From Nocardia cyriacigeorgica (GTDB lineage Bacteria > Actinomycetota > Actinomycetes > Mycobacteriales > Mycobacteriaceae), in NCBI RefSeq assembly GCF_029868385.1, contig NZ_JARWNX010000062.1, positions 62,001-126,000 of the forward strand: 64,000 bases of DNA, written 5' to 3'. Positions within the stretch are counted from its first letter, which is position 1. Every line of letters begins with the position of its first letter. Below are positions 17,731-25,003 of this stretch, in pieces. A program made the position numbers and the translations under genes. The notes under the pieces were generated by a model. The model saw only the letters and a list, made by a program, of their open reading frames with translations, made no database searches and had not been told where the DNA came from.

Positions 17731-19980
17731 ATGGCGCACTCCGCCCCGCCTGCCTCCGGGGTGACCGTCCAGCCCGACCGGTCGCCGGAGACATCGCGTG
17801 GCAACCAGGTGGCCGAGGCCATCGAACGCTTCACCGCGGCCTGGCAGAACGCCGACACTCCCCCGGAACTCCGCAGCTATCTGCCCGATGCGCCCGCCAT
17901 CCGGCGGGTATCGCTGATCGAGCTGATCAAGATCGATCTGGCGCATCGGTGGCAGCGCGGCACCGCACCGAAACGATTGGCCGAATACGTCGACGAACTG
18001 CCGGAGCTGCGCACCTGGCCGTTACCGCCGGATCTGATCTACGAGGAGTTCCATCTACGCCGCCGGGCGGGCGGTTCGGTCGACGTCGACGAATACACCG
18101 CCGCCTATCCCGAACAGGCCGAACAACTTTCGCAACTGCTCACCACCGAGGACTATCACAGCACCCTGCTCGGCGTACCCACCGAACCGGCGAATCTCGA
18201 TGAGCTGGAGGCCGGGCAGCGCATCGACGACTTCGATCTGATGGCCGGGCTCGGCCGCGGCGCGTTCGCCCGGGTCTTCCTCGCCCGCCAGCGTTCCATG
18301 CAGCGGCTGGTCGCGGTGAAGATCTCCCGCGACAAGGGCACCGAACCGCAGACCCTGGCCCAGCTCGACCACGACTACATCGTGCGCGTATTCGACCAGC
18401 GGGTGCTCGACGCGCCGCCGCTGCGGCTGCTGTATATGCAGTACGTGCCCGGCGGGACGCTGCTCACGGTGCTGGAACGGGTGCGCAACACACCGCCGCA
18501 GCAGCGCAGCGGACAGTTGCTGATCGACGTCATCGACGCCGTGCTCGCGGACAAGGGCGAGATCCAGCCCGCCGAATCACCGGTCCGCGCCGAACTCGCG
18601 GGGCTGTCCTGGCCGGAGACGGTGGCGTGGCTGGGCCGTCGACTGGCACAGGCCCTGGATTACGCGGGCGGCGTCGGTGTCCTGCACCGCGACGTCAAAC
18701 CGGCGAATGTGCTGCTCACCGCGGAGGGCATACCCAAGCTGGCCGATTTCAACATCAGTTTCAGCGGCAACGTCTCCGGCGCCAGTCCGGTGGCCTACTT
18801 CGGCGGATCGCTGGCCTATATGTCCCCCGAGCAATTGTCGGTGGTGCATCCCGAGCGTCCGGCCGCCGCCGCCGACCTCGATACCCGCAGCGACCTGTTC
18901 TCGCTGGCCGTCGTGCTGTGGGAGCTGCTCACCGGCCGCAAACCCTTCGATGACGACACCATCGACGGCGGCGACCGCACGGCATTGGATTCGATGCTGG
19001 ACCGGCGCGCCCACAGCCCGCAGGATCTGCCCTACGACGATCTGCCGCCCGACACCCCCGCCGCCCTGCGCCGTGCGCTGGTGCGCGCTCTCGAACCGGA
19101 TCCGGCCAAACGCTGGGAGCGCGGCGCCGATATGGCCCAGCAGCTCCAGGTCTGCCTCGACGCCCACGCCCGCGATCTGGTCGATCCACCGCCGGGCAGC
19201 GCGCGGCTGCGTGCGCGCAGCTGGATCCATCCGATCATGGCGTTGGCCATCGCCGTACCGAACGCGCTGGCGATCCTCTACAGCTACAACCACAATCGCA
19301 CCCTGATCATCAGCAAACTCGACGCCGATGCCCAGCGCACCTTCGACCGCATCGCCTGGACCAGCTACGGTGTCGGCTTCCTGATCGGCGCGGTGGTGAC
19401 CATCGCGCTGGTGATGCACCTGTGGCTGATCATGCACGGGCTGCGCCGTGGCCGCGACTACGATGCCAAGACCCTGGCCAGGGCACGATCGGACACCCTG
19501 CAACTCGCCAGTCGCAATGTGTTGACCTGCTTCGTGCTCTGGGCGATCACCGGCGTCGCGGTGCCGATGTCGGTGCAGCTGTCCGGCAGCCACATCAGCG
19601 CCGAATCCTCGGCGCATTTCTTCCTGACCCAGATCGTGTGCGGCGCGATCGCCATGGCCTATCCGTACTTCCTGGTCAGTTTCTACGCGGTGCGCTGCCT
19701 GTATCCGGCGTTCCTTCCGCTGGGCGGGCTCACCGCCGAGGACAGTGCGCAACTGCGTGCGCTGGACCGGCGCAGCACCTACTTCCTGACCATCGCCGCG
19801 GCGGTGCCGCTGCTCGGCGCCGCCGGGGTGACCTTCATCCCGCCCGCCGACATTCCGTCGGTGATCGTGCCGCTGCGGGTGCTGTGTTTCGGCGGTGCGC
19901 TGGCCTTCGTCGGCGTGTATTGGTTGTTCCGGATGCTCGAACGCGATCTCGCCGCGCTCGAACGCATAGTCACGCACTGA
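17731..19980 (+). CDS. Membrane Ser/Thr protein kinase with DFN motif
   Basis: A 749-aa protein. Residues 20-150 hold two copies of a helical module around RLAEYVDELPEL and DVDEYTAAYPEQAEQL, an N-terminal layout common in planctomycete kinases. The kinase domain (~165-480) has GLGRGAFARVF, the VAVK lysine and HRDVKPANVLL. The magnesium loop reads ADFN where DFG is standard. APE is present as SPEQL. About six hydrophobic spans follow (~500-740), starting IMALAIAVPNALAILY. Catalytic Lys and Asp are intact, so activity is plausible but the loop may be altered. The ATG at 17731 is the leaderless start. Confidence 0.82.
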   Translation: MAHSAPPASGVTVQPDRSPETSRGNQVAEAIERFTAAWQNADTPPELRSYLPDAPAIRRVSLIELIKIDLAHRWQRGTAPKRLAEYVDELPELRTWPLPPDLIYEEFHLRRRAGGSVDVDEYTAAYPEQAEQLSQLLTTEDYHSTLLGVPTEPANLDELEAGQRIDDFDLMAGLGRGAFARVFLARQRSMQRLVAVKISRDKGTEPQTLAQLDHDYIVRVFDQRVLDAPPLRLLYMQYVPGGTLLTVLERVRNTPPQQRSGQLLIDVIDAVLADKGEIQPAESPVRAELAGLSWPETVAWLGRRLAQALDYAGGVGVLHRDVKPANVLLTAEGIPKLADFNISFSGNVSGASPVAYFGGSLAYMSPEQLSVVHPERPAAAADLDTRSDLFSLAVVLWELLTGRKPFDDDTIDGGDRTALDSMLDRRAHSPQDLPYDDLPPDTPAALRRALVRALEPDPAKRWERGADMAQQLQVCLDAHARDLVDPPPGSARLRARSWIHPIMALAIAVPNALAILYSYNHNRTLIISKLDADAQRTFDRIAWTSYGVGFLIGAVVTIALVMHLWLIMHGLRRGRDYDAKTLARARSDTLQLASRNVLTCFVLWAITGVAVPMSVQLSGSHISAESSAHFFLTQIVCGAIAMAYPYFLVSFYAVRCLYPAFLPLGGLTAEDSAQLRALDRRSTYFLTIAAAVPLLGAAGVTFIPPADIPSVIVPLRVLCFGGALAFVGVYWLFRMLERDLAALERIVTH

Positions 19981-20074: not shown

Positions 20075-21079
20075 ATGATCGAACCGGTGACATCCGCGGT
20101 CGCACCGGCGACCGGCACACCGACCGTGGCCGGCCCCGAACTACCGTTGGCGCACAGATACCGCAGCGCCGACCCGATCAGCTGGCACGGCAGCACGGTG
20201 TATCCGATGTACACCGAACAGCTCGGCGGTGCGGCCGCCACCCTCACCCTGACCTTGCTGTCGGCGACTCCGCCACCGGGTGTGCGCGGACTCGGGATGG
20301 GGTTGTCGATGGTCGACGGCTATGTCGGCGTCGACCGGCGGCGACTGCCCGGTGTGGATGTCTGGAGCGATGCGCTCGCGCGCGGCATCACCGTCGAATT
20401 GTCGGCCGCGGGCCGTGGCGCGCTGTACTCGTTGACACCGGTCTGGCTCGACGCCGACGGTTGCGCCCGCTCCTGGTCGGGCAATTACGGTGTCGTCGTC
20501 GAACCCGCCGCGAACGGACATGTGGTGCTGTGGTGCAGCCTCGGGACGGGACCACCGCATTTCGCGGATCTGGTCGTCGACGTGGCGGCCGCACCGGCGG
20601 ATACGACGCCCCTTCCCGCGGTGAGCGACACCATCGCCCGGCCGGGTTCACTGGTTCCCGTTGCACGACAACATGGTCCGGTCCTCGACGCCGACCGCTC
20701 CGCCATGCCGGACAGCGGGATCGATTCCGCGACGACACTCGCCGACCCGGACTATCGCGCCGCCCTCTACGACCTGGGGGTGGCGATGTTCGGCCGTGGT
20801 GAGGAAGGGCGGGCGTGCGAGATCTGGTCACAGGCCGCGGCGGCCGGACATGCCGAGGCGGCCTACGACCTCGGTGTCGTGCGGTTTCGGCACGGCGATC
20901 TCGACGAGGCCGAACGCTGGTGGCGGACGGCGGCGCAGCGCCGGGTCATCCGCGCGATGGCGGGTCTGGCCGAACTGATGGCGCGGCGCGGGGAGCACGC
21001 ACAGGCCCGGGTCTGGCATACCCGTGCGGTCACCGCGCAGACCGTCGCGCAATCACTGCCAGCACACCGCACCGGATAG
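20075..21079 (+). CDS. Sel1/TPR-like protein of unknown function
   Basis: A 334-aa protein. Residues ~30-190 are an unrecognised beta-rich domain (HRYRSADPISWHG, then ARSWSGNYGVVVEP). Residues ~225-325 form helical repeats of the Sel1/TPR kind: ALYDLGVAMFGRGEEGRAC, AAYDLGVVRFRHGDLDEAERW, AMAGLAELMARRGEHAQAR. Repeats of this type scaffold protein complexes. ATG 20075 has AGGCGGGG upstream and is preferred to GTG 20042. Its stop codon lies in the first unit of the tandem repeat that follows. It may act with the upstream kinase. Confidence 0.65.
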   Translation: MIEPVTSAVAPATGTPTVAGPELPLAHRYRSADPISWHGSTVYPMYTEQLGGAAATLTLTLLSATPPPGVRGLGMGLSMVDGYVGVDRRRLPGVDVWSDALARGITVELSAAGRGALYSLTPVWLDADGCARSWSGNYGVVVEPAANGHVVLWCSLGTGPPHFADLVVDVAAAPADTTPLPAVSDTIARPGSLVPVARQHGPVLDADRSAMPDSGIDSATTLADPDYRAALYDLGVAMFGRGEEGRACEIWSQAAAAGHAEAAYDLGVVRFRHGDLDEAERWWRTAAQRRVIRAMAGLAELMARRGEHAQARVWHTRAVTAQTVAQSLPAHRTG

Positions 21080-21270
21080 ATCCCCTCGGCCGATGCAACG
21101 CACGGGACAGGCGTCCCGGCCGATGCATCACAACCGGATAGACCTCCTCGGCCGATACATCGCACCGGATAGGCGTCCCCGGCCGATGCGTCCCCCGGCC
21201 GATGCGTCGCACGGACAGGCGTTCACGAGCCGCCGCATCACACCGGACAGACGTTCACGGGCCGCCGAAA
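21066..21270. repeat. Degenerate tandem repeat, about six units of ~32 bp
   Basis: Units share CACCGGATAGGCGTCC followed by CGGCCGATGCRTC and then CA. Unit starts lie near 21066, 21101, 21129, 21161, 21210 and 21240. The fourth carries an extra CCCGGCCGATGCGTC. Spacing is irregular (28-49 bp) and identity roughly 70-85%. It runs from the end of the Sel1-like gene to the erm leader promoter. It is not CRISPR-like since there are no unique spacers. Confidence 0.7.
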
Positions 21271-21298
21271 TTGAATGGACGGCCTCGGGGATGCGCGT

Positions 21299-21304
21299 TA
21301 GGGT
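21299..21304 (+). promoter_or_regulatory. TAGGGT box, leaderless promoter of the erm leader
   Basis: TAGGGT followed by GACCGCC and ATG places the likely transcript start at the leader start codon. The same TAGGGT-GAC layout precedes the TetR gene at 55277. Confidence 0.5.
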
Positions 21305-21311
21305 GACCGCC

Positions 21312-21413
21312 ATGAGTGGCATCACAGGTCGGCACGCGACGTGCGCCGGTGTGTATTTTCTCCGCCTGCGCACGGTGGCTCGGACTCTGCCGGTGCACCC
21401 TCTCGCGCGCTGA
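21312..21413 (+). CDS. 33-aa leader peptide with RLR motif upstream of erm
   Basis: A leaderless ATG opens a 33-aa peptide with GVYFLRLRTVAR in its centre. Arg-X-Arg leaders (the ErmD class) are known to stall ribosomes when macrolides or ketolides are bound, which refolds the mRNA and frees the methyltransferase ribosome-binding site. Here the stop codon overlaps the first arm of a stem (21413-21421 with 21466-21475), which excludes an alternative hairpin at 21465-21481. The erm gene starts 143 nt downstream. Together this is a strong candidate for drug-induced attenuation. The peptide itself is probably not functional beyond regulation. Confidence 0.65.
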   Translation: MSGITGRHATCAGVYFLRLRTVARTLPVHPLAR

Positions 21414-21551
21414 CCAGACCGCTCACGCGCTGAGCACGCCGCTCGACGCGTCGAACACCCTCTCACGGTTCTGGTAACCGTCGTCTCCACGTGCCCTGGC
21501 ATGGGTCCGGGCGAATCACGCATTTCCCGATTCGTCCGCTCCGTTCGGAGG
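21413..21551 (+). promoter_or_regulatory. Putative attenuator between leader and erm
   Basis: ACCAGACCG (21413-21421) can pair with CGGTTCTGGT (21466-21475) with one bulge. Alternatively ACGGTT (21465-21470) pairs perfectly with AACCGT (21476-21481). Further stems are TCGACGCGTCGA at 21443-21454, CGAATC/GATTCG at 21512-21534, and CTCC/GGAG at 21540-21550, the last covering the GGAGG ribosome-binding site of erm. Confidence 0.5.
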
Positions 21552-21556
21552 ACCCC

Positions 21557-22372
21557 ATGTCCCGCAAACACTTTCCCCCGCATGCCCGGACCACCAGCAC
21601 GCGTAAGCGGCTGTCGCAGAACTTCCTCACCGATGTCCGCGCCGCCCGCACGATCATCCGCGCGGCCGAGGTCACCGCCACCGACCTGGTGCTGGAGATC
21701 GGCGCCGGTGACGGCATGCTCACCGCGCAACTGCTCGACCGGGTGCACCGGGTGATCGCCTACGAGAAAGATCGCCACTATGCCCGGCGGCTGCGCGCTC
21801 GCTACGACGACAACCCCCGCATCCGAGTGATCGGTGACGACGTCCTCCGCGCGAATCCGCCGGGCCTACCGTTCGTGGTTGTCGCCAATATCCCGTTCGG
21901 GATCAGCACCGACATCCTGCGCTGGTGCCTCCAGGCCCGGCAGCTCACCTCGGCGACACTGCTCACCCAGCGGGAGTTCGCACGCAAGTACTCCGGCGAC
22001 TACCAGCGCTGGAGCAAACTCACCGTCACCCGGTGGCCGACGGTCACGATGACACTCGGCCCGAGCATCGGGCGCGGCAGTTTCGACCCGGTCCCGCGGG
22101 TCGACGCCGCAGTGCTGCGCTTGACTCGCCGGCCACAACCTCTGCTACCCGACGCGGCACTGGCCGACTACAACGACCTGGTAGAACTCGGCTTCTCCGG
22201 CGTCGGCGGCTCGCTGGCCGCCTCACTACGCCGCGCACACCCGGCCCCGGCCGTGCGCGCGGCCTGCGCCGCGGCCGGCATCGCCGCCGACGAACCGGTC
22301 GGGCTGGTCGACCCCGACCGGTGGATCACCCTGTACCGACACCTGCGCCGGATACCCGCCGCGCTCGACTGA
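21557..22372 (+). CDS. erm: Erm-type 23S rRNA (adenine-N6)-dimethyltransferase
   Basis: A 271-aa SAM-dependent methyltransferase. SQNFLTD, LEIGAGDGMLTAQL (motif I), AYEKDRHYA, and NIPFGISTDILR (motif IV) identify the Erm/KsgA superfamily. NIPFG rather than NLPY, the length and the leader-controlled context favour Erm over the housekeeping 16S enzyme. It would dimethylate A2058 of 23S rRNA and confer macrolide-lincosamide-streptogramin B resistance; mono- versus dimethylation cannot be read. The ATG 21557 has CGGAGG 5 nt upstream. Convergent with ectD, with a shared terminator. Confidence 0.88.
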   Translation: MSRKHFPPHARTTSTRKRLSQNFLTDVRAARTIIRAAEVTATDLVLEIGAGDGMLTAQLLDRVHRVIAYEKDRHYARRLRARYDDNPRIRVIGDDVLRANPPGLPFVVVANIPFGISTDILRWCLQARQLTSATLLTQREFARKYSGDYQRWSKLTVTRWPTVTMTLGPSIGRGSFDPVPRVDAAVLRLTRRPQPLLPDAALADYNDLVELGFSGVGGSLAASLRRAHPAPAVRAACAAAGIAADEPVGLVDPDRWITLYRHLRRIPAALD

Positions 22373-22442: not shown

Positions 22443-23315
22443 TCAGATCGGCGTGAAATCGCGGCTCGCGATATAGGTCGGCCGTCGCGCCGGTGCGGCG
22501 AACGGCTCCACCAGCGTGTTGTCCACACTGTTGAACACCAGGAAGATGTTCGAGCGCGGGAACGGCGTGATGTTGTTGGCCGAACCGTGCATGATGTTCG
22601 AATCGAACAGCAGCGCCGAACCCGCCTTACCGGTGAACTGCGCGATACCGTACTTGTGCGCCAGTACATCGATATCGGACTGCGTCGGCACACCGATCTG
22701 CTGCTCCCGCAACGACTCCCGATAGTTCTCCGCCGGGGTCTCGCCCTGACACGGCACGAATGTGCGGTGCGAGCCCGGCATCAACATCAGACTGCCGTTG
22801 AACGGATAGTTGTCGGTCAGCGCGATGGAGATGCTGACCGCCCGCGGAGTGGGCATACCGTCCTCGGCGTGCCAGGTCTCGAAATCGGAATGCCAGTAGA
22901 AACCGGTACCACCGAAGCCGGGCAGATAGTTCACCCGACTCTGATGCAGATAGACCTCCGACCCGAGGATCTGCCTGGCCAGGCCCGCGACCCGCGGCTC
23001 GGCGGCCAGCTCCGCAATCGCGGAGCTGAGCCGATGCACCTCGAACACCGAGCGCACCCGGTCCGAGGACTTCTCCACGATCACCCGCTCGTCGCCACGC
23101 AGATCGGGATCACCGGCGAGCCGGTCGATCTCCCGGGCGAAGCGGTTCACTTCGTCCGGGGAGATCAACTGGTCCACGATCGTGTACCCGTCGGTATCGA
23201 ATCCGGCGAGCTCCGGCGCCTCGATTCGACCCCACACCGTCGCATCGTGCCGCTCGAGATGCGGCGCCGGACCAGAGGTCCGGGTCGGGTAGTGATCGAT
23301 CCGATTGTGTGCCAA
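22443..23315 (-). CDS. ectD: Ectoine hydroxylase
   Basis: A 290-aa non-heme Fe(II)/2-oxoglutarate dioxygenase that converts ectoine to 5-hydroxyectoine. The EctD signature FYWHSDFETWHAEDGMP supplies the His-x-Asp iron ligands; the distal His is in DSNIMHGSANN. I chose a TTG start at 23315 because AAAGGA lies 8 nt upstream and the protein then begins LAHNRIDHYPTR (Met in vivo). The longer frame overlaps ectC. Last gene of ectABCD, 14 nt after ectC. Confidence 0.92.
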   Translation of the reverse strand: MAHNRIDHYPTRTSGPAPHLERHDATVWGRIEAPELAGFDTDGYTIVDQLISPDEVNRFAREIDRLAGDPDLRGDERVIVEKSSDRVRSVFEVHRLSSAIAELAAEPRVAGLARQILGSEVYLHQSRVNYLPGFGGTGFYWHSDFETWHAEDGMPTPRAVSISIALTDNYPFNGSLMLMPGSHRTFVPCQGETPAENYRESLREQQIGVPTQSDIDVLAHKYGIAQFTGKAGSALLFDSNIMHGSANNITPFPRSNIFLVFNSVDNTLVEPFAAPARRPTYIASRDFTPI

Positions 23316-23329
23316 CGTCGCGTCCTTTC

Positions 23330-23725
23330 TCAGGTGGCCGGAACGGCGACCAACGGATAGACGCCGTTCTCGTCGTGAACCTCCTGCCCGGTGACCGGCG
23401 GATTGAACACGCACATCATGCGCATCCGGGAACGCACCTCCAACTGGTGCTTCTCATGGCCGTCGAGCAGATACATCGAACCGGGAGCCAGTTCGTAGGT
23501 CTGATTGTTGTCCAGATCGGTCAAGGTGCCCTCACCCTCCACCAGCCACACCGCCTCGATGTGGTTCTGGTAGTGGAAGACGTGGGTGGTGCCCGCCTCG
23601 ATGGTGGTCTCGTGGAACGAGAACCCGACACCGTCGCCGCCGAGCACGATGCGTTTACTGCGCCAACCGGTACCCGCCACATCGCGGTCGGTGCCGGTGA
23701 TCTCTTCGGTGGTACGCACGATCAT
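23330..23725 (-). CDS. ectC: L-ectoine synthase
   Basis: A 131-aa cupin enzyme that cyclises N-gamma-acetyl-diaminobutyrate to ectoine. It shows MIVRTTEEITGTDRDV at the N-terminus, HYQNHIEAVWLVEGEG, and DGHEKHQLEVRS followed by CVFNPPVTGQEVHDE, all standard EctC text including metal-site Glu/His. Full length. 15 nt after ectB. Confidence 0.95.
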   Translation of the reverse strand: MIVRTTEEITGTDRDVAGTGWRSKRIVLGGDGVGFSFHETTIEAGTTHVFHYQNHIEAVWLVEGEGTLTDLDNNQTYELAPGSMYLLDGHEKHQLEVRSRMRMMCVFNPPVTGQEVHDENGVYPLVAVPAT

Positions 23726-23740
23726 GGGTGATGGTCCTCC

Positions 23741-25003
23741 TCAGGCGCCACAGACGGTATGGACGGCTCCGGTCAGGATCTGCAATCCATGGTCGAGCTC
23801 ATCAGAGGTGATCGTCAAGGGCGGAAGCAATTTGACGACCTCATCGGAGGCACCGGAGGTCTCGGCGAGCAGACCGCGTTCGAACGCGACCTGGCACACC
23901 TTGCCCGCCTGCGAGGCGTCCTCGAAGACCAGACCGTGCACCAGCCCCCGGCCACGGGTCGAGATACCGGGCAGTCCCTCGGAGATCGCGGTGAAGGATT
24001 CGGCGATCTGCTCACCCTTGGCCTCGGTGGCCGCTTGCAGCGCACCATCGGACCAGTAGTGCTCGAGCGCCACCTGGGCGGTGATGAACGACGGGTTGTT
24101 ACCGCGGAAGGTGCCGTTGTGCTCACCGGGCGACCACACGTCGTGCTCCGGCTTGAACAGCACCAGCGCCATCGGCAGACCGTAACCGCCGATCGACTTG
24201 GACAGGGTGACGATATCGGGGGTGATCCCGGCCGATTCGAAGGAGAAGAACGGACCGGTGCGCCCGCAACCCATCTGCACATCGTCGACGATGAGCAGGA
24301 TGCCGCGCGCCGCGCACAGCGTGGCCAGATGCCGCAACCATTCGGCGCGGGCCAGGTTCACCCCGCCCTCACCCTGCACGGTCTCCACGATGACGGCGGC
24401 CGGACGGTCGAAGCCGGAGGACGAATCGTCGAGGACCCGCTCCATCCACTGGAAGTCGGCGGTGGTGCCGTCGAAGTAGCCGTCGTAGGGCATCGGGGTG
24501 GCGTGGTTGAGCGGCACACCCGCACCCGCGCGCTTGGCGGCATTGCCGGTGACCGACAGGGCGCCGAGCGTCATACCGTGGAAGGCGTTGGTGAAGCTCA
24601 GCACCGTCTGACGACCGGTGACCTTACGGGCCAGCTTCAGCGCTGCCTCGACGGCGTTGGCGCCCGTCGGGCCGGGGAACTGGACTTTGTAGTCGAGCCC
24701 GCGCGGCGCCAGCAGCGTATCGCGCACGGTCTCGAGCAGTTTGCGCTTGGCGACGGTCGACATATCCAGTCCGTGCGTAATGCCGTCGGAGGCGATGTAA
24801 TCGATCAACGCTTCCTTGAGCACCGGATTGTTGTGCCCGTAGTTGAGTGCGCCTGCACCCGCGAAGAAATCGAGGAAATCCTTGCCCTCTTCGTCACGCA
24901 GCCAGGCGCCTTTGGCGGTTTCGAAAACCGTCGGCCAGGAGCGGCAGTAACCACGCACATTCGATTCCAGTGCGTCGAAGATCGTCGTGTCAGCGGTGAT
25001 CAT
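23741..25003 (-). CDS. ectB: Diaminobutyrate--2-oxoglutarate transaminase
   Basis: A 420-aa class III PLP aminotransferase making L-2,4-diaminobutyrate from aspartate semialdehyde. FFAGAGALNYGHNNP, PGPTGANAVEAALKLARK, DDVQMGCGRTG and the PLP Lys in TLSKSIGGYGLP are seen. The ATG overlaps the ectA stop as TGATG. Full length. Confidence 0.95.
   Translation of the reverse strand: MITADTTIFDALESNVRGYCRSWPTVFETAKGAWLRDEEGKDFLDFFAGAGALNYGHNNPVLKEALIDYIASDGITHGLDMSTVAKRKLLETVRDTLLAPRGLDYKVQFPGPTGANAVEAALKLARKVTGRQTVLSFTNAFHGMTLGALSVTGNAAKRAGAGVPLNHATPMPYDGYFDGTTADFQWMERVLDDSSSGFDRPAAVIVETVQGEGGVNLARAEWLRHLATLCAARGILLIVDDVQMGCGRTGPFFSFESAGITPDIVTLSKSIGGYGLPMALVLFKPEHDVWSPGEHNGTFRGNNPSFITAQVALEHYWSDGALQAATEAKGEQIAESFTAISEGLPGISTRGRGLVHGLVFEDASQAGKVCQVAFERGLLAETSGASDEVVKLLPPLTITSDELDHGLQILTGAVHTVCGA

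Follow-up and report, generated by a model that had tools for sequence, protein, structure and literature searches.

A predicted drug-inducible attenuator of the RLR class, with its anti-sequestor in the leader codons, upstream of erm in Nocardia

The erm gene of this Nocardia cyriacigeorgica locus is preceded by a short leader open reading frame (ORF) with an Arg-Leu-Arg motif, and the question is whether, and through which RNA folds, this leader could keep erm shut until a macrolide arrives. The window is the whole stretch of DNA analyzed here, 64,000 nucleotides in length. The initial annotation had proposed a drug-sensing RLR attenuator with competing hairpins. The best explanation, with a probability of roughly 0.8, is drug-inducible attenuation of erm translation, of the RLR class and driven from a WhiB7-type promoter; the general proposal is retained in this reading, while the predicted switch is formed by structures other than the hairpins named at that time.

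The gene and its ribosome-binding site are placed as follows.

21557..22372 (+): erm, coding for a 23S rRNA (adenine-2058-N6) methyltransferase similar to ErmE/H/O/R, assigned by profile scores
21547..21552 (+): erm Shine-Dalgarno sequence GGAGGA, identified by sequence, within P3/P1 of the junction listed below

The erm product matched NF000499 with 250.1 bits, above the curated cut-off of 212, and the ErmE/H/O/R family NF000337 with 313.6 bits, below the curated cut-off of 320. It is a near relative of the ErmE/H/O/R proteins and a non-member by the NF000337 cut-off. Upstream of erm, at 17731-19980 (+), a protein with a protein kinase domain is encoded, and after it comes a TPR-like protein. 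Degenerate 31/62-bp tandem repeats (CGGCCGATGCATC...GGATAG) at 21064-21208 separate the TPR-containing gene from the promoter of erm. Directly 3' of erm and convergent with it are ectoine genes (PhyH-type hydroxylase, ectoine synthase, and class-III aminotransferase; 22443-25003, -). A search of 21060-21700 against Rfam gave zero matches up to E = 1.

Two features define the leader itself.

21312..21413 (+): leader ORF of 33 amino acids, MSGITGRHATCAGVYFLRLRTVARTLPVHPLAR, with ATG at 21312 and TGA at 21411-21413, supported by conservation and pN/pS
21363..21371 (+): RLR codons Arg18-Leu19-Arg20, predicted site of macrolide or ketolide stalling (P site, Leu19; A site, Arg20), by analogy with ErmDL

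All coordinates of the 33-residue peptide with FLRLRT, reported earlier as starting 7 nt after TAGGGT, were verified. Using the Erm protein of the window, 150 Nocardia genomes were searched and the upstream DNA of the usable homologues was read; homologues were present in about two thirds of the genomes, and the relatives retrieved included contigs of named Nocardia species. The 110 erm loci read comprised 109 from Nocardia and 1 from Glycomyces. An RxR-containing ORF with TANNNT 6-8 nt ahead of its start was found upstream of erm in 108 of the 110; Markov resampling of the upstream regions gives a chance expectation of 1.3/110, and the reverse strand yielded 2. The two exceptions carry slightly divergent leaderless ORFs ending SARPRHAA and SARLRRAAA, in which RxR is present; they failed the filter because Ala precedes the motif. 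The middle residue of RxR can be L, I, P, V, F, M, Q, or R, and a short ORF with Arg/Lys-X-Arg/Lys upstream of erm, presumably on the same transcript, is what characterizes the RLR class. In a spacing search that allowed 4-9 nt, all 116 accepted loci fell at 6-8 nt between the -10 box and the start codon (92 of the 116 had 7 nt, 13 had 6 nt, and 11 had 8 nt), the distance that marks leaderless mRNAs, suggesting that initiation at the leader AUG is leaderless. The reading frame of the leader peptide is under constraint. Among the six closest species, pN/pS was 0.44 in frame versus 1.53 and 1.09 in the shifted frames, so the frame is preserved, whereas its loss had been named beforehand as one of the observations that would speak against the attenuator.

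The leaders fall into distinct classes. Class A contains 78 loci with ErmE-like proteins, including the window and a Glycomyces, and its leaders are mostly 29-40 aa long (three are shorter) with the pattern '...AYYIRLRTEAWALPAHR...'. Class B contains 27 loci with a more distant Erm and leaders of 17-22 aa, 'MSCCMFIRLRHARALAR'; a class B leader was also found in Nonomuraea (MSCMFTCQVFIRIRRGRALAR). The third set (L119 to L121) has 3 loci with leaderless leaders of 13-14 aa ending RxRR. These three belong to a rare third Nocardia Erm type with 35-38% identity, and their leaders resemble the Erm(55) leaders. From an order-wide sample the best 30 Erm loci were fetched, and about a third of these 30 had a leaderless RxR ORF by the scan used for Nocardia.

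The initial annotation had also mentioned a third stem touching the erm ribosome-binding site. This stem is real, and it belongs to the main conserved element of the locus, a junction formed by regions 3 and 4.

21500..21559 (+): sequestering three-way junction, supported by conserved pairing and covariation
within 21500..21559 (+): P1 of the junction, in which CAUGGGUCC pairs with GGACCCCAUG
21509-21517 with 21529-21537 (+): P2 of the junction, in which GGGCGAAUC pairs with GAUUCGUCC
21539-21550 (+): P3 of the junction, CUCC(GUUC)GGAG, which holds the Shine-Dalgarno sequence

Because P1 joins these two strands, the erm AUG is paired in this fold, so that the Shine-Dalgarno sequence and the start codon are predicted to be sequestered together, as expected of a member of the RLR class, and the pairing covaries. 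Across 27 diverse sequences, 90.6% of the cells were paired, compared with 30-49% when one strand was slid. Two-sided changes occur in P1 and P2, for example CAUGAG/CUCAUG in L063 and A-U to G-C at the loop end of P2, and in Glycomyces there is a compensatory change at the start codon itself, where a UUG start is faced by CAGGGG. Glycomyces buryatensis (L035, about 1785-2010) has the same junction, an RMR leader, and the UUG erm start, which suggests that the whole switch was transferred together with the erm gene. In L067, L075, and L080 the Shine-Dalgarno sequence is altered to AAGGA, and a P3-like hairpin is retained (UCCU-GACA-AGGA). A covariance model of the junction matched 80 of the 150 Nocardia genomes with one copy each; in a class-wide sample of 394 genomes it matched the three Nocardia and gave zero matches outside the genus.

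These observations bear on the strongest competing explanation, transcription attenuation, in which the leader would govern early termination rather than access to the erm start. The uORF of whiB7/wblC works in this way, with a terminator and antiterminator in the whiB7 leaders (PMC10727445), and competing helices could serve either mechanism. However, a scan of 21240-21620 revealed no terminator-like hairpin with a T-run, and the conserved 3:4 fold itself contains the Shine-Dalgarno sequence and the AUG, re-matched to UUG in Glycomyces. The lack of a terminator-like site in the scanned region and the position of the start codon inside the conserved fold make this explanation the less likely one, and we consider it improbable compared with translational attenuation.

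The predicted competitor of the junction is a helix between the leader codons that follow the RLR motif and the 5' side of the junction.

21378..21398 (+): region 2, anti-sequestor strand, leader codons after RLR (A-R-T-L-P-V-H), pairing with 21491-21512
21491..21512 (+): region 3, GTGCCCTGGCATGGGTCCGGGC, pairing with region 2 or, in its 3' part, with region 4; part of the covariance model R1

Helix 2:3 contains about 20 bp and takes up P1's 5' strand together with some of P2. Among 57 distinct sequences the share of paired cells was 89.9%, against 22-45% after sliding, and two-sided changes were seen at six of the pairs. For example, the third base of a proline codon is A in 11 loci, and region 3 has a matching U in each of them. 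Each species' region 2 paired with its own region 3 better than in all 2000 permutations among species, which take no account of phylogeny. Native codons also paired better than synonymous shuffles over the 78 class A loci (mean z of -1.48), while the same test gave a weak signal for the window alone (z of -1.29, P of 0.11). The conservation of the residues that follow RxR thus probably reflects the RNA and not the peptide. Taken together, the predicted genus-wide switch is the choice between helix 2:3 and the junction 21500-21559, two mutually exclusive folds.

Other pairings around the leader were weighed against this switch. Two of them had been put forward initially as the competing hairpins.

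21411..21421 (+): stop-codon arm TGACCAGACCG, pairing with 21466-21475 (CGGTTCTGGT), duplex kept in L002-L007
21465..21481 (+): hairpin ACGGTT-CTGGT-AACCGT, kept in L002-L007

Both are real, overlapping, and mutually exclusive. They were nevertheless rejected as the core of the switch, because they were found only in the six-species clade of the window (L002-L007), and each of the four further erm loci examined lacked the hairpin. To judge from this distribution, they appear to be clade-specific accessories, which may tune termination or spacing. In addition, the first leader codons (GSPGxNGA) of many class A species can pair with the Shine-Dalgarno region (1:4), with z down to -4.1. The 1:4 pairing was unsupported in the window (z of +0.45), so it was dropped from the explanation at this locus.

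The promoter in front of the leader contains the following elements.

21267..21273 (+): AT-rich box GAAATTG of WhiB7 type, directly 5' of the -35 hexamer, with A/T conservation among erm promoters
21276..21281 (+): -35-like hexamer TGGACG, identified by sequence, 17 nt from the -10 box
21299..21304 (+): -10 box TAGGGT (TANNNT), 7 nt ahead of the leader start

The TAGGGT box and its 7-nt spacing were as first described, while the WhiB7-type box had been overlooked. When erm promoters were aligned on the -10 box, positions -31 to -29 relative to it were 98-99% A/T in GC-rich surroundings, and a T(T/G)G consensus was present at about -24 to -22 across the promoters of the relatives. The AT-rich box lies directly upstream of a SigA-type -35, which is the definition of the box that mycobacterial WhiB7 uses immediately 5' of the -35 (PMC3905903), and a WhiB7-like box is present in nearly all erm promoters examined. 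The window genome also codes for a WhiB7 homologue, a WhiB protein ending RGRPRK, the WhiB7 AT-hook. The box, together with this protein, makes control of the erm promoter by WhiB7 likely. Elsewhere in the window genome, 10 exact pattern matches to leaderless ORFs behind AAATT boxes were found; an RxR leader of the erm type was absent from the other forward-strand matches that were read, and 3 of the 10 lie on the reverse strand.

It might be asked whether induction by WhiB7 alone would suffice, with the leader as a passive or merely translated leaderless ORF. The strong box in nearly all promoters, the WhiB7 homologue, and the membership of mycobacterial erm genes in the WhiB7 regulon are consistent with purely transcriptional induction. 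However, it would leave unexplained the RxR motif in essentially all loci, the coding constraint on the leader, and the compensated helix between leader codons and region 3, and we regard it as still less probable than transcription attenuation.

Pairing was then computed for each P-site codon in a ribosome-queue model. To represent a stalled ribosome with its queue, the RNA was blocked from its 5' end up to a boundary lying 17 nt from where the P-site codon starts. In the ErmDL system, the arrested ribosome holds the Leu of Arg-Leu-Arg in the P site (PMC8298421). With Leu19 of the window leader in the P site, the modelled probability of P1 was 0.03 and the AUG was open at 0.67; with the ribosome three codons further on, these values were 0.99 and 0.00. 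Over the 78 class A loci, P1 was 0.12 at RxR; as the ribosome moved from the X of this motif to +3, it climbed out of the range 0.01-0.12 to about 0.6-0.7, where it stayed further on. In 16 of the 78 it was never above 0.5 in the range tested. Altering the footprint by 3 nt shifted the switch point by just one codon. In free RNA, many class A species were predicted to form 2:3 instead of 3:4. P3 on the Shine-Dalgarno sequence was mostly closed in every state, and in the window this sequence was open at 0.02-0.26. Class B, with a different leader and RNA, appears in the model to follow the same switch logic as class A: its start codon was open at 0.35-0.88 as long as the ribosome was no more than about four codons away from RxR in either direction, compared with 0.04-0.17 in free RNA or with the ribosome outside this zone. 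By contrast, under equilibrium folding with a single ribosome and no queue, the window AUG stayed paired (0.02 at Leu19), and a scan of Shine-Dalgarno and AUG opening gave no clean peak at RLR. A stalled ribosome thus favors the alternative fold in the window in the queue model and not as a single ribosome, which implies that the switch needs queued ribosomes or co-transcriptional folding. Either a queue or co-transcriptional order, with 2:3 forming before region 4 exists, would be a reasonable assumption. Any stall near codons 18-20 flips the modelled switch and the motif is arginine-rich, so the leader could in principle sense a shortage of arginine or Arg-tRNA in the style of an amino-acid attenuator, but this is very improbable, as the control point has two or three spaced arginines and no run, the variable middle residue is the +X+ pattern, and the downstream gene codes for a macrolide-resistance methyltransferase.

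Translational attenuation by drug stalling would proceed as follows. Transcription would begin at or beside the leader AUG, so that ribosomes would enter at the 5' end with no Shine-Dalgarno sequence to guide them. When drug is absent, they would travel as far as the leader's stop codon and peel region 2 away from region 3, and the freed region 3 would fold with region 4 into the junction 21500-21559; as this junction buries the erm Shine-Dalgarno sequence and start codon, erm would be off. With a macrolide or ketolide, the ribosome would stall once Leu19 occupies the P site and Arg20 the A site, and together with its queue would cover the RNA to about codon 24, leaving most of region 2 free. 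Region 2 could then capture region 3 through as many as about 20 bp, among them those of the CAUGGG segment, which otherwise pairs with the erm AUG; P1 would be blocked by helix 2:3 and erm translated. Methylation of A2058 would then relieve the stalling and close the loop. Stalling at +X+ is structurally established for ErmDL (PMC8298421); for the Nocardia erm leader, leaderless initiation, drug-dependent stalling, WhiB7 dependence, and induction are inferred.

A wider interpretation can be offered tentatively, and we rate it as possible rather than probable. The leader codons might have a triple role, as a stalling peptide, as the post-RxR anti-sequestor, and, in many species and not in the window, in sequestration of the erm Shine-Dalgarno sequence by the first leader codons (about codons 3-10, paired with CUCCGUUCGGAGGAC). 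The locus might then act as an AND gate for intrinsic resistance, requiring both translation and stalling of the leader, on a transcript boosted by WhiB7, before erm opens. The leaderless start would keep the sensor translated under stress, and the two Nocardia architectures might have converged on this design.

Nocardia species infect humans, and erm homologues occur widely among them. As the arrangement is kept across the genus, intrinsic macrolide resistance in Nocardia is probably switched on by the drug. If erm opens only once a macrolide has stalled the leader, inducible resistance could go unnoticed in short susceptibility tests. In Mycobacterium abscessus, erm(41) confers inducible resistance that short tests can miss. 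The locus would also be a clearly delimited example in which leaderless initiation is coupled to arrest by the nascent peptide, and the covariation makes each of its steps directly testable.

Among known systems, RxR leaders have already been published for Erm(38) and Erm(36). A close match in mechanism is ErmDL of the RLR class, which likewise has an Arg-X-Arg leader upstream of erm and is arrested by macrolides and ketolides (PMC8298421), an arrest that is predicted here. The ErmDL motif lies at codons 6-8 (Arg6-Leu7-Arg8), whereas in the window RLR occupies codons 18-20 of 33, and the Nocardia leader differs further in its leaderless start and in the post-motif codons that would form the anti-sequestor. 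The initial annotation had pointed to a similar FLRLRT segment in an ErmX leader, and the Trueperella plasmid pAP2 indeed has an annotated 'erythromycin resistance leader peptide', MLISGTAFLRLRSNR. This Erm(X) leader likewise contains FLRLR and is leaderless, 7 nt after a -10 box TATAAT, but has 15 aa instead of 33, a comparison made at the level of the leader sequence. Leaderless RxR ORFs at TANNNT also precede Erm(55) of a Mycobacteroides chelonae plasmid and Mycobacteriales relatives (VGITSVAVIRIRRF type); these leaders are short and end RxRRx, unlike that of the window. For Erm(55), inducible macrolide resistance was reported with no leader mentioned (PMC11878018). The promoters of the WhiB7 regulon (erm(37), erm(41)) likewise have an AT-rich box directly upstream of the -35, while the Nocardia locus has an extra RxR leader downstream and its WhiB7 dependence is putative. 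The whiB7/wblC uORF is likewise actinobacterial and senses ribosome inhibition through alternative helices (PMC10727445); it acts on a transcriptional terminator, and sequestration of the start codon is predicted for Nocardia erm instead. According to a 2024 survey of the DNA upstream of erm genes, uORFs and palindromes occur in a scattered way and lack universal conservation (PMC11264731); in the present loci they are almost invariant across one genus. No description of a Nocardia erm attenuator was found in the searchable literature, outside which most subscription papers lie. RLR-class attenuation is a known kind of regulation, and the predicted Nocardia version would have its anti-sequestor in the leader codons.
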